From Ktedonobacterales bacterium (GTDB lineage Bacteria; Chloroflexota; Ktedonobacteria; Ktedonobacterales; DATBGS01), in NCBI GenBank assembly GCA_036557285.1, contig DATBHW010000024.1:1-43445 (forward strand): DNA of 43,445 nt, given 5' to 3'. A program made the position numbers and the translations under genes. Shown in pieces: positions 2,161-43,445 of the stretch. How positions within the stretch are numbered: the stretch's first letter is position 1; every line of letters starts with the position of its first letter. The notes beneath the pieces are model-generated. The model saw only the letters and a list, made by a program, of their open reading frames with translations, did not search any database and was not told where the DNA came from.

Positions 2161-3729
2161 CTAATCGCCCGGCATGGGGGCAGGGGCCTGCTCAATCGTT
2201 CTCCCCTGCTTTTTCGCTTGCCTCGCTGCTTCTAGCGCGGGATCGCGGCCAACGAAGAGCGCCAGTGCTGTACAGATGCCGCAGCCAATGAGCGAGAACA
2301 GGAACGTATCATTCAGGCCCATCGTCACAGCGTGGTGGGTTACACAGGTCTGGAGCGCCTGCTGGCCGACCTGCTGGACACAGGCGCCCGCCACGCCGCT
2401 GAGCGGGTGTGTCGAGAAACCAGCAGCTATATCGCTGGCGTGGACGGTCGTTCGCTGCGTCAGGTAGGTGGTGAGGACTGCCACCCCCACCGCTCCGAAG
2501 ACTATCTTGGTCGCGCTTATCAGTGATGTTGCTTTTGCCATTTGTTGATTGCTGACGACTGAGACGGCCAGCGTTTGCAGGGGCTGACCGACCAGACCGA
2601 GGCCGATGCCGCGCAGGATCAGCCAGAGTTGTAGATCGGCCCCGCTGGTCGTCACGTCCAGGTGCGTAAAGCCGATCATCGAAATGGCGACAAGGGCGAC
2701 GCCGGTGACGGCCAGGATACGCGGTCCCACGTTGTTATAGAGCTTTCCGCCAATCGCCAGCCCTACAGCCGTAGCCAGACCCTGAAGGATCAAAATCTCG
2801 CCGGTAGTCAGCGCGGACAAGTCTTCCACTTGCTCGAAGAAGAAGGGTACGAGAAAGAGGCTGCCGAAAAGGACGGCCACCGTAGCCCACTGGAGGATAT
2901 TGGCGATGGTAAACGTGTAGCTGCGGAAGAGCCGAATATCAATCACCGGGTCTTTGGCCCGCAGCTCGACCAGAATAAACGCGATCAGCAGCGCGCCACC
3001 GGCGGCCAGGAAGGCGAGGACCGTTGTATCGCTCCAGCCGTGTATCCCGGCCTCGTTGATGCCGTACACGAAGGCACTGAAGCCTGCCATAGAGAGTACC
3101 AGGCCGGGCAGATCAAAGCGGCGCGCGCCTGGCTCGCCGCTGCCGTTGGCCTCGTCCGCGCGTTCGGAGGCTCTTCCATGCAGGACCAGGAACGCCAGGG
3201 CAAAGGCCAAAACGCCAATCGGCAGATTGATGGTGAAGATCGCGTTCCAGCTAAAGTTTGTCGCCAGGTAGCCTCCCAACGTCGGGCCAAAGGCTGGCCC
3301 AAGCAGCAGCGGAATCATCAGCAGCACAATCGCGCTCGCGCGCTCGGTAGGCCCAAAAAGACGGAAGATAATCGCCATCGCCACCGGCACCAGAGCGCCG
3401 CCGCCAAGGCCCTGAAGGATACGGAAGCCGATCAGCCATTGCTCTGTGGGGGCGATCACACAGAGCGCGGAGCCGAGGGTAAAAAGTCCCAGGGCGATAA
3501 GAAAAATGGTTTTGGTACCCACGCGATCACTGAGATAGCCGGTGATGGGGATGACGGCTGCCTGCGCCAGAAAGTAGCCAGTACCGACCCAGGTAATCGT
3601 CTGGAAATCAGTATGGAATGCGGTGGCGATCTGGGGCAGCACTACGGTCACAATGGTATTATCGAGGATCGCCATCAGCATGCCCAGCGCAATCACCAGC
3701 GTGGCCTGCCACCTGTAACTGAGACCCAT
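2161..3729 (-). CDS. DHA2-family MFS multidrug efflux transporter (EmrB/QacA type)
   Basis: This proton-driven drug exporter of the major facilitator superfamily is 522 residues long with about 14 hydrophobic segments, the size and topology of the DHA2 (14-TM) group. Motif A is seen as GYLSDRVGTKTI in the loop after helix 2, and the antiporter motif C as LLGPAFGPTLGGYLA in helix 5; D-x-T-I-V in helix 1 (LDNTIVTVVLPQIA) is the DHA2 motif D1. The start at 3729 (MGLSYRWQ) is chosen because AAGGAG precedes it by 7 nt; an upstream ATG at 3753 lacks this. The C-terminal tail is short and charged. It has its own consensus promoter (3803-3832) and terminator. No TetR or MarR regulator gene is adjacent, so control must come from elsewhere. 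Substrate unknown. Confidence 0.92.
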   Translation of the reverse strand: MGLSYRWQATLVIALGMLMAILDNTIVTVVLPQIATAFHTDFQTITWVGTGYFLAQAAVIPITGYLSDRVGTKTIFLIALGLFTLGSALCVIAPTEQWLIGFRILQGLGGGALVPVAMAIIFRLFGPTERASAIVLLMIPLLLGPAFGPTLGGYLATNFSWNAIFTINLPIGVLAFALAFLVLHGRASERADEANGSGEPGARRFDLPGLVLSMAGFSAFVYGINEAGIHGWSDTTVLAFLAAGGALLIAFILVELRAKDPVIDIRLFRSYTFTIANILQWATVAVLFGSLFLVPFFFEQVEDLSALTTGEILILQGLATAVGLAIGGKLYNNVGPRILAVTGVALVAISMIGFTHLDVTTSGADLQLWLILRGIGLGLVGQPLQTLAVSVVSNQQMAKATSLISATKIVFGAVGVAVLTTYLTQRTTVHASDIAAGFSTHPLSGVAGACVQQVGQQALQTCVTHHAVTMGLNDTFLFSLIGCGICTALALFVGRDPALEAARQAKKQGRTIEQAPAPMPGD

Positions 3730-36381: not shown

Positions 36382-36410
36382 TTGACAAGCGGCAGTAAGC
36401 TTGGGATAAT
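36382..36410 (+). promoter_or_regulatory. Promoter of the RNHCP gene
   Basis: TTGACA (36382-36387), a 17-nt spacer and GATAAT (36405-36410) form a near-perfect promoter. The start near 36417 lies about 178 bases before the coding start, so a long leader is transcribed. The 67 bases between cysK and this promoter hold no clear terminator. Confidence 0.82.
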
Positions 36411-36419
36411 TCACCCTGT

Positions 36420-36594
36420 TTGAGAGGCATCTTGTTAATACGATGAGTCTCCCCCATCCGGGGGCTAGAAGTGAAGGGGCCTTTGATGCGTGCGCTTGTA
36501 AGCAAGGTCGCGACCCCCGAAATACCGGCTAGTCGGTGTGAAGCCTGTATGGCTTCGCCGACCTGGCGCCGAAAGGCAATCAAGAGGAGAACCC
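36420..36594 (+). ncRNA. Long hairpin-rich 5' leader of the RNHCP gene (candidate cis-regulatory RNA)
   Basis: Between promoter and start codon lie several local stems: a C-rich/G-rich pair (36450-36464, CCCC with GGGG), CTTG/CAAG closed by TAAG (about 36495-36506), the self-complementary GGTCGCGACC, ACCG/CGGT (about 36524-36537), a 6-bp perfect GAAGCC/GGCTTC with loop TGTAT (36540-36556), and GCC-GAAA-GGC, a GNRA-capped stem (36569-36578) just before the ribosome site AAGAGGAG. The last stem is placed to control translation. No known riboswitch class was recognised. The long GGGG (36475) to CCCC (36513) pairing could enclose a multi-branched domain. Confidence 0.5.
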
Positions 36595-37128
36595 TTGTCT
36601 CACAACACTACACAGGCCCCGGACGACGCATGGGAGGAGGCCGACGCTGAGGCTGGCGGCTCCGCCTATACGCTGCGCAAGCAAAACCGTCTGCGCAGCC
36701 AGCAGCAGTATGCCAGCCAGCGTGCCTCGCGCGAGCGTGGTGATGGCTCCGACGCTGCGCGGGCGCGCCCGGCGCAGCGCCGCCAGCGCCCCAACCAGCC
36801 TGAAGAGTTCAGGTGCCGTCACTGCCGGACGATGATCGGGCCGGTCCCAAGCGGTGGGCGGCATCGCAATCACTGCCCGATCTGCTTGCATTCACGCCAT
36901 GTGGATGAGAAGATGCCGGGAGACCGCCTCAGTCCTTGCGGCGGGACGATGGCTCCTATCGGTCATTTTGCCCGGCCCACTGGCGAATACGGACTCGTGC
37001 ATCACTGTCTCTCGTGTGGCGTCAGGCGCCATAACCGCATCGCTGCCGATGATGATTTCGATCTGGTCCTGGCGCTGCCCGATCTGACACGCGCCTGGCT
37101 GACAGAGGATAGCGAACACACGGCGTAA
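36595..37128 (+). CDS. RNHCP-domain zinc-binding protein
   Basis: The 177-residue protein has a 70-residue Gln/Arg-rich, probably disordered N-terminus. The RNHCP domain follows (about 72-145), recognised by the motif itself, RNHCP at 91-95. Cysteines C74/C77, C94/C97, C115 and C138/C141 are spaced like zinc ribbons. The family has no established function; Zn-dependent RNA or DNA binding is a reasonable guess. The TTG at 36595 is chosen because AAGAGGAG lies 5 nt before it; a GTG at 36538 lies in a leader hairpin and has no ribosome site. It has its own promoter, leader and terminator, so it is a single-gene unit. Confidence 0.8.
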   Translation: MSHNTTQAPDDAWEEADAEAGGSAYTLRKQNRLRSQQQYASQRASRERGDGSDAARARPAQRRQRPNQPEEFRCRHCRTMIGPVPSGGRHRNHCPICLHSRHVDEKMPGDRLSPCGGTMAPIGHFARPTGEYGLVHHCLSCGVRRHNRIAADDDFDLVLALPDLTRAWLTEDSEHTA

Positions 37129-37136
37129 CCTTTCAG

Positions 37137-37189
37137 CATGAACAACGGGCAGCGGAGAGGTCATTACTCTCCGCTGCCCGTTGTTCATG
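37137..37189. terminator. Very long perfect hairpin after the RNHCP gene
   Basis: Arms 37137-37159 and 37167-37189 are perfectly complementary over 23 bp with the 7-base loop GTCATTA. It begins 8 bases after the stop codon. No strong T run follows (CCCGTTTCG). It is of the same style as the hairpins at 982-1032 and 42676-42721, but the sequence differs. Confidence 0.8.
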
Positions 37190-37760: not shown

Positions 37761-39102
37761 CAGGGCTATTTAATAGTCAGTAAAGAACGAAGGAGAAGGC
37801 GGACAGCCAAAGTAGGGTGCGCATCCAGGCGGCGCATCAACTGGGGAGCATTGCGCACCCCCAAGAAGTCGAACAGAGCCAGAACCAGATTGTTGAGAGC
37901 CGCTACCACTTGAGGTGCTGCCCCTTTGCGGACCTGGCAGTGATCTTCACGGAGGGTCACATCGCGCCTCCAATGCAAGCGGTTTTCGATGTGCCAATGC
38001 GCCCGGACCAACGCCAATAGACGCGAGGCGTCCGCCTGTTTTGGAGACAGGCTGCTGATGCCGTAGATTGTCTGGCTGCGCTTCTGTCCCCGCTGTTCAA
38101 CGCTGCGCCGCAGGCAAAAGACCTGTTCGACACCCGACCAGGTGGAGGCCAGGAACTCGTTCAGTTCGGTGCTGGCAATGAGTTCGCGCCGTTCCAGCCG
38201 TCCATGTCCCTTGGTGCAGGTTGCTGCTTGCCGCCAATCCCGACAATCGGGCGGTGGCTCGCTGAAGAAGAGGCGCAAGTCTTCCTCCAGCGTGGGCTGA
38301 TTGGCCTTGGCGAACAGGACGTAATCGCCTCCACAGCGGATAATCTGGGCACAGCACCCGCGTTGGGTGTGCAGGGCGTCCGCTGTCACGATGCGTCCGG
38401 TGACGTGGGCGGGCGTGAGCAGGGTAGCTTCCAGCGTGATCTCATTGCCTTTGTCAGGCACCGCCTGTTGGGCCAGAACCACGCCCGTCTGGGCCTCATA
38501 GAGCGCGACCAGATGGCAACTCGGCTCATCAGGAGCAGCATGGCCGAGTGTACCCCGCAGCGTTTTCCCATCTAAGACCACCTGGTCGTGCTGCTCGTGT
38601 GCATCTGCTTGAGTCAGCAATCGGCTTGGCTCCCCTGCGCAGCGGCGCTCAGCTTCCAGCCGCGTCAGCCAACTAGCGAGCAGGTGTGTGACCTCCTGGT
38701 CATCCACCATGCGTAACACGTTGCTGTAGGTCGCCACACAAGGAAACTGCTGACGGGCAGCAGGCAACACTTGATGCAGCCAGTCCGCGCGGAGCCGCAC
38801 CCACTCGGCAATGGCGGCCAGCGTGGTCATCCCTGCCAATTTGCCTAAAGTCAGCAGGCTCAGAACCAACACTAGGCTATACCGCTTCCCGCGTGGTCGC
38901 CGCCTATCAGTTATCTGTTCAAAGACGTGATAGAGGGACAAGGCAGCTATCTCCTGCTCGTGGTCGACGGGGGCCAAGGCTCGGTGGAACGTGTTAGAGT
39001 GCATAGAGGGCCAGGTCTCGCTTTCAATGAGGATGAGTGTTCGCTCATTGTAGCAAGGCATGGCTCCCTTCTTCTCTGCTTCTGGACTTTTAAATAGCCC
39101 TG
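37761..39102 (-). mobile_element. Complete ISAs1-family insertion sequence (1342 bp)
   Basis: Terminal inverted repeats at 37761-37778 and 39085-39102 match in 17 of 18 positions (outer end CAGGGCTATTTAA). Perfect 9-bp direct repeats flank them. The single transposase gene fills the element and is intact. Exact target duplications and near-identical ends indicate a recent, probably still mobile insertion. It separates the SufT-like gene from the promoter of the parvulin gene without damaging either. Confidence 0.93.
37766..39061 (-). CDS. ISAs1-family DDE transposase
   Basis: The 431-residue protein is full length. The N-terminal DDE_Tnp_1-associated region has LYHVFEQITDRRRPRGKRYSLVLVLSLL. 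Catalytic segments of the ISAs1 group follow: VVLDGKTLRGT (first Asp), the GRIVTADALHTQRG block (second Asp), and HWHIENRLHWRRDVTLREDHC, which holds the catalytic Glu near the C-terminus. No frameshift or stop is seen. The start at 39061 lies 24 bases inside the right end after AAGGGAG, with short spacing; an ATG at 39004 (MHSNTFHR) is an alternative. The stop almost touches the left inverted repeat. Confidence 0.95.
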   Translation of the reverse strand: MPCYNERTLILIESETWPSMHSNTFHRALAPVDHEQEIAALSLYHVFEQITDRRRPRGKRYSLVLVLSLLTLGKLAGMTTLAAIAEWVRLRADWLHQVLPAARQQFPCVATYSNVLRMVDDQEVTHLLASWLTRLEAERRCAGEPSRLLTQADAHEQHDQVVLDGKTLRGTLGHAAPDEPSCHLVALYEAQTGVVLAQQAVPDKGNEITLEATLLTPAHVTGRIVTADALHTQRGCCAQIIRCGGDYVLFAKANQPTLEEDLRLFFSEPPPDCRDWRQAATCTKGHGRLERRELIASTELNEFLASTWSGVEQVFCLRRSVEQRGQKRSQTIYGISSLSPKQADASRLLALVRAHWHIENRLHWRRDVTLREDHCQVRKGAAPQVVAALNNLVLALFDFLGVRNAPQLMRRLDAHPTLAVRLLLRSLLTIK

Positions 39103-42721: not shown

Positions 42722-42768
42722 TAGTAAACGATGATGGGCAGAAAAAATCCGACTGTGCAGGCGGAGGG

Positions 42769-42885
42769 ATCGGCGGCGTCCTATTGTCCCACAAGGTTGC
42801 CCCTGCAGTATCGTGGGGGCTGAAGGGCTTAACGACCGTGTTCGGGATGGGAACGGGTGTTCCCCCTTCGCTATAGTCACCGACC
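42769..42885 (-). rRNA. rrf: 5S ribosomal RNA
   Basis: The minus strand shows the 5S signature: TCGGTGACTATAGCG at the 5' end, CCCGTTCCCATCCCGAACAC in loop B/C, and CGCCGA at the 3' end pairing with the 5' TCGGTG. The terminal stem can be extended outward (GGAGGG with CCCTCC). Length is about 117 nt; ends are approximate. It follows tRNA-Ala directly, without a 23S gene between, and has its own promoter upstream. Confidence 0.95.
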
Positions 42886-42936
42886 CCTCCGCATGCGCAC
42901 TCGGATTGAGAATGATACGCGATGCGAAGCTTTTAT

Positions 42937-42965
42937 AGTCTATTCGATTGTTTCCCAGTTGTCAA
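42937..42965 (-). promoter_or_regulatory. Promoter between tRNA-Ala and 5S rRNA
   Basis: On the minus strand TTGACA (42960-42965), a 17-nt spacer and TAGACT (42937-42942). Initiation near 42930 would precede the 5S 5' end by about 45 bases. It would allow 5S to be made independently of the 16S-tRNA transcript. Confidence 0.65.
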
Positions 42966-42982
42966 GAGGCTTTCGCGCTCAG

Positions 42983-43055
42983 TGGAGACGAGGGGATTCG
43001 AACCCCTGACCCCCTGCTTGCAAAGCAGGTGCTCTCCCAACTGAGCTACGCCCCC
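42983..43055 (-). tRNA. tRNA-Ala (TGC anticodon)
   Basis: The minus strand folds into a 73-nt cloverleaf: acceptor GGGGGCG with CGTCTCC, including G3-U70, the alanine identity pair; D arm AGCTCAGTTGGGAGAGC; anticodon loop CTTTGCAAG with TGC; T arm with GGTTCGAATCC. The discriminator is A. CCA is not encoded. Confidence 0.97.
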
Positions 43056-43089
43056 GGCTCGCATGTACATACCGAGGTATGTAGCGCGG

Positions 43090-43163
43090 TGGGCCTTCCT
43101 GGACTCGAACCAGGGGCCTCAGTCTTATCAGGACTGCGCTCTAACCACCTGAGCTAAAGGCCC
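43090..43163 (-). tRNA. tRNA-Ile (GAT anticodon)
   Basis: The minus strand folds into a 74-nt cloverleaf: acceptor GGGCCTT with AAGGCCC, D arm AGCTCAGGTGGTTAGAGC, anticodon loop CTGATAA with GAT, T arm with GGTTCGAGTCC. CCA is not encoded. It lies in the usual place after 16S, 34 bases before tRNA-Ala. Confidence 0.97.
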
Positions 43164-43309
43164 AGAGAGGGGAGGCGAGGTGCGAGACCTGCGACAACTC
43201 AAGAGTGGTAAGGATGGCTTTGGGTCAATGCCAGGACTGCCAAAGGATAGACAAGGAACTTGATCGACCTGGAAGCTTCCCCTCTTCCCGAAGAAGAGGA
43301 TGCTCTCCC

Positions 43310-43445
<136 letters not shown>

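Follow-up and report, generated by a model that had tools for sequence, protein, structure and literature searches.

The gene for an RNHCP-domain protein in the stretch of Ktedonobacterales DNA analysed here (43,445 nucleotides, hereafter the window) lies behind a leader that probably works as an upstream open reading frame (uORF) attenuator. The RNHCP protein would be made when ribosomes on the uORF fail, and would then probably act as a ribosome-associated translation-stress factor. The RNHCP domain is widespread, its cysteines and histidines are conserved, and it has no known role. No biological paper in the literature searched uses the term RNHCP; because most subscription journals lie outside that literature, the claim that RNHCP leader control is new applies to it alone.

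The RNHCP gene occupies positions 36595–37128 of the forward strand, starts with TTG, as the initial annotation had it, and encodes 177 amino acids. By its Pfam score the product is a member of the RNHCP domain family (PF12647; E value 3.2e-30; 104.4 bits, the gathering cut-off for membership being 24 bits), with profile positions 2–86 of 90 covered. A Shine–Dalgarno sequence (SD), AAGAGGAG, is found at 36582–36589, and a long perfect inverted repeat, terminator-like and without a T run, lies at 37137–37189. Because this repeat follows the gene end at 37128, the gene appears to form a single-gene unit, which is flanked by a PLP-enzyme gene (cysK-like) and an iron-sulfur assembly-like gene. Close downstream of the unit, the reverse strand carries a DDE transposase with a DDE_Tnp_1-associated domain (37766–39061). 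Also on the reverse strand, the 3′ end of a 16S rRNA gene, two tRNA genes and a 5S rRNA gene stand in a row at 42768–43445; since the gap between the second tRNA and the 5S gene is only ∼100 nt, there is no 23S gene between them, and the row reflects either a split or otherwise unusual rRNA operon or an artifact of assembly.

The sole promoter-like site in 1.6 kb is a strong sigma-70-type promoter at 36382–36410 (forward strand), composed of a −35 element TTGACA, a 17-nt spacer and an extended −10 element TGgGATAAT; with 11 of 12 matches, it deserves its earlier description as near-perfect. Transcription is expected to start near 36417, which would give the RNHCP mRNA a 5′ leader of ∼178 nt (36417–36594). 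This leader had been described as untranslated, which is very likely wrong. An ATG at 36486, preceded by the SD-like GAAGGGG (36473–36479), opens a uORF of 54 codons (MRALVSKVATPEIPASRCEACMASPTWRRKAIKRRTLVSQHYTGPGRRMGGGRR; 36486–36650) that spans the ribosome site as well as the start codon of RNHCP and ends 56 nt past that start in a different frame. Because 12% of dinucleotide shuffles of the window leader yield an overlapping, SD-preceded ATG uORF by chance, the window alone is weak evidence and the claim rests on relatives, in which such a uORF likewise crosses the RNHCP start. Judged from sequence, the window leader is very likely translated from the uORF.

RNHCP genes for comparison were drawn from the same order, from a public genome set, and from sets centered on one genome each of Intestinibacillus, Sphaerobacter and Streptomyces; none of the relatives is close to the window's own family. 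Among 16 leaders from three Ktedonobacterales families (f1–f3), 13 contain an SD-preceded ATG uORF, and in 12 of these 16 leaders it overlaps the RNHCP start, whereas 300 shuffles gave 0.88 such leaders on average and never more than 5 (uncorrected for shared ancestry). Overlap was found in 14 of 21 leaders of the Thermomicrobia set (shuffles: mean 1.37, maximum 5, again uncorrected for ancestry) and in none of the seven leaders of family f4. By way of control, 73 genes were roughly predicted at the same loci, 72 of them non-RNHCP, and an overlapping uORF precedes 4 of these 72. The combination of an SD with a TTG or GTG start recurs in relatives: under the start-choice rule used, RNHCP begins with TTG or GTG in all f1–f3 genes tested, and with ATG in 6 of 7 genes of f4. 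Every indel in the Dictyobacter uORFs is a multiple of three, and pN/pS of the uORF peptide is near 1 in all clusters, giving no clear sign of purifying selection; the Dictyobacter uORF is kept open while its peptide is without clear constraint. Some relatives have a frame offset of +1 between uORF and RNHCP and others one of +2, which argues against programmed frameshifting from the uORF into RNHCP. A conserved stalling peptide, considered on account of R-x-x-V-L-like N-termini, was also rejected, the common codons being the anti-SD itself in the f3 and Dictyobacter/Tengunoibacter leaders.

In Dictyobacter, Tengunoibacter and two f3 leaders (six relatives altogether), this anti-SD occupies uORF codons 8–14 and can pair with the RNHCP SD. 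In the hand-anchored alignment of this small sample, which is supportive only, 87% of cells are paired as compared with 43–57% in slid controls, and two of nine pairs have changed on both sides. The consequences for initiation were modelled by positioning a ribosome with a footprint of 30 nt along the uORF and computing the cost of opening the RNHCP SD. With the P site at uORF codons 7–15 this cost drops by up to 7.9 kcal/mol, and the drops summed over 12 relatives amount to 41.9 kcal/mol, against 1.4 ± 2.7 kcal/mol (maximum 9.7) in shuffles, ancestry being uncorrected. The computed behavior, an SD closed when the leader is free and opened by a ribosome on the uORF, is clear in 7 of the 12 relatives and weak in two more; the computed effect is absent in the other three (L047, L056 and L059). 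The modelled switch is also absent from the window leader, where opening the SD costs 3.9 kcal/mol and the drop is −0.9 kcal/mol. As the window leader has the uORF and the overlap without this switch, we infer that its RNHCP site is occluded by the ribosomes translating the uORF.

Leaders with a uORF precede RNHCP genes in other phyla as well. Stand-alone RNHCP genes of Oscillospirales have a short closed uORF followed by GGGAGG, CCUCCC and the SD, in that order, with a conserved stem. In six of eight such leaders (L131, L132, L134, L143, L152 and L160), opening the SD costs less with the ribosome mid-uORF than near the uORF end; of the remaining two, L157 shows no effect and L107 an effect at the first codons only. 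On the strand opposite to RNHCP, a few hundred bases upstream, L107 also contains a match to the S10-Clostridia ribosomal protein leader (3470–3543, reverse strand). A second Oscillospirales group (L125, L167, L170 and L174) combines a short uORF with a long leader and has no modelled SD switch; its uORFs have 9–10 codons, start with [MV]SV and lie ∼155–160 nt 5′ of RNHCP, with strong hairpins in between. Genes for RsgA-RNHCP fusions (L122 and L137) carry terminator-like hairpins in their leaders. In Nocardia, Nocardioides, Streptomyces and Spongiactinospora, tandem RNHCP genes are located downstream of a closed uORF, and the model predicts no mid-uORF opening of the SD in these actinobacterial leaders. 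The tandem pair consists of two diverged copies (L123, L133, L142, L136, L139, L121 and L140). A putative WblC site, the box GAAAWY-N3-(−35)-N16–18-TANNNT, is present in 3 of 9 actinobacterial leaders, with 0.002 expected from mononucleotide shuffles; this is the motif given for WblC (PMC7157823). The recurrence of these leaders in several phyla suggests that trouble at the ribosome is what turns RNHCP on.

In the mechanism we propose for the window, ribosomes would load at the AUG at 36486, translate the uORF and run across the RNHCP SD and UUG start, holding initiation there low. An early stall or failure on the uORF, caused for example by a ribosome-targeting antibiotic, would leave the RNHCP site free, and the protein would be made. 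RNA pairing would add to this control in Oscillospirales and in the majority of Ktedonobacterial relatives, where an anti-SD would close the SD and a ribosome held mid-uORF would open it. Once made, RNHCP would probably act as a ribosome-associated translation-stress factor together with an RsgA-type GTPase.

Other explanations of the leader can be weighed against this one. The window uORF could be a chance ORF within a long 5′ UTR, with RNHCP expressed constitutively from a weak TTG start. The frequency of such uORFs in shuffles, the missing SD switch in the window, and a family (f4) that lives without the uORF are consistent with this view, but related families repeat the SD, the non-ATG start and the overlap far above both shuffles and control genes, and we consider a chance ORF unlikely. 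Translational coupling, in which translation of the uORF opens a hairpin and promotes RNHCP initiation, draws on a stem-loop at 36532–36562 that lies inside the uORF, 5′ of the ribosome site of RNHCP, and that ribosomes moving along the uORF would melt. However, the uORF stop is 56 nt past the RNHCP start, unlike in stop-start coupling, the uORFs of relatives stop in either of the other two frames at varied distances, and in Oscillospirales the model has the SD closing once the uORF is completed; coupling is accordingly very improbable.

The same stem-loop is stable (local z of −4.2 in a region picked post hoc; z of −2.7 for 36510–36582) and would suit a structured untranslated leader, that is, a riboswitch or protein-binding RNA that senses a ligand or zinc or that binds RNHCP for autoregulation, much as the initial annotation had envisaged. 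A GNRA-capped hairpin reported beside the ribosome site is indeed present (GCC-GAAA-GGC, 3 bp, 36568–36577), and the claim of a structured leader stands for these two elements but not for the leader as a whole, which is no more structured than expected by chance (z of −1.42, with 19 of 200 shuffles folding equally well; z of −1.05 against shuffles for 36417–36594). An Rfam scan of the leader detected no family at gathering or permissive thresholds, and a DNA search for similar leaders in 150 relatives returned only short low-scoring matches and no related leader; one match that was checked falls in a livM-like coding region. Relatives have the uORF architecture in common and not a single aptamer fold, nothing observed favors autoregulation by the zinc protein, and an untranslated sensor RNA of any of these kinds is improbable. 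A stand-alone guide-type RNA (IscB/OMEGA-like), raised earlier as an alternative, has next to no likelihood. A HEARO RNA is present in a related genome, that of Tengunoibacter tsumagoiensis (L069:7770–7988, reverse strand; RF02033, 125.7 bits; ∼4 kb from the RNHCP gene), but the window contains no RF02033 match, and its leader directly precedes the coding gene of an ordinary single-gene unit in an arrangement kept in relatives. The idea that a regulated leader offers a clue to RNHCP function is retained at its core, with uORF translation taking the place of a ligand-binding RNA.

RNHCP is fused C-terminally to the GTPase RsgA in Clostridia and relatives, and on a Vibrio plasmid the RNHCP gene overlaps rsgA. 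An RNHCP pair adjoins an FBP_C zinc-finger gene on a Streptomyces plasmid and a chloramphenicol acetyltransferase (CAT) gene in another Streptomyces strain. FBP_C is a domain of EF-G-binding proteins of the FusB type. Additionally, the RsgA paralogue SCO6149 is activated by WblC (PMC7157823). The RsgA fusion and overlap, the FBP_C and CAT neighbors, SCO6149 and the leaders predicted to respond to ribosome position all point to a ribosome-linked stress protein, which RNHCP probably is. Sequence searches of solved structures gave no confident relative, and an AlphaFold model of the protein (mean pLDDT of 86.7) gave fold matches that are only weak (best Z of 3.3), so we claim no function on the basis of fold. 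Relatives on mobile DNA comprise three plasmid records and, among phage records, six unannotated faecal contigs; none was detected in viral contigs. More tentatively, RNHCP may represent a class, so far undescribed, of inducible factors for ribosome stress or antibiotic protection that operates with a second RsgA GTPase and has come under translation-sensing leaders several times, with an overlapping uORF in Chloroflexota, a closed uORF with an SD switch or terminators in Clostridia, and a closed uORF with a WblC-type promoter in Actinomycetota. Leader control across phyla, the fusion to RsgA and the FBP_C and CAT neighbors raise a direct question: does RNHCP work on the ribosome under antibiotic stress?

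The window product belongs to a Pfam family (PF12647) without a described function, and its leader is best compared with known uORF attenuators. In cat-type attenuators, a ribosome held on the uORF breaks the anti-SD pairing. The ermC/ermCL translational attenuator works likewise (PMC10219788), and this is the release modelled in Ktedonobacterial and Oscillospirales RNHCP leaders; the difference from both is that RNHCP is no known resistance enzyme and that the Chloroflexota uORF overlaps the start of its gene. The toiL uORF of Escherichia coli topAI-yjhQ responds to ribosomes stalled by antibiotics of several classes and exposes the ribosome site of the gene that follows (PMC12121999), a control by stall sensing similar to that proposed for RNHCP. 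In contrast to RNHCP, toiL regulates a toxin-antitoxin system and represses via RNA structure and Rho termination (PMC12121999), whereas the window leader lacks a modelled SD switch and has a uORF that overlaps its gene. The gene wblC/whiB7 and its regulon are subject to uORF-mediated attenuation (PMC7157823); these too belong to a translation-stress response, and the WblC-type boxes found upstream of some RNHCP genes in actinobacteria provide a putative regulon link, although wblC encodes a transcription factor and RNHCP does not. With moderate confidence we place the window leader partially among the uORF attenuators, as it has an SD-preceded uORF kept in relatives and lacks the SD switch. 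Control of RNHCP by its leader was not found in the literature searched, and we propose, also with moderate confidence, that it works like the ermCL, toiL and wblC leader attenuators.
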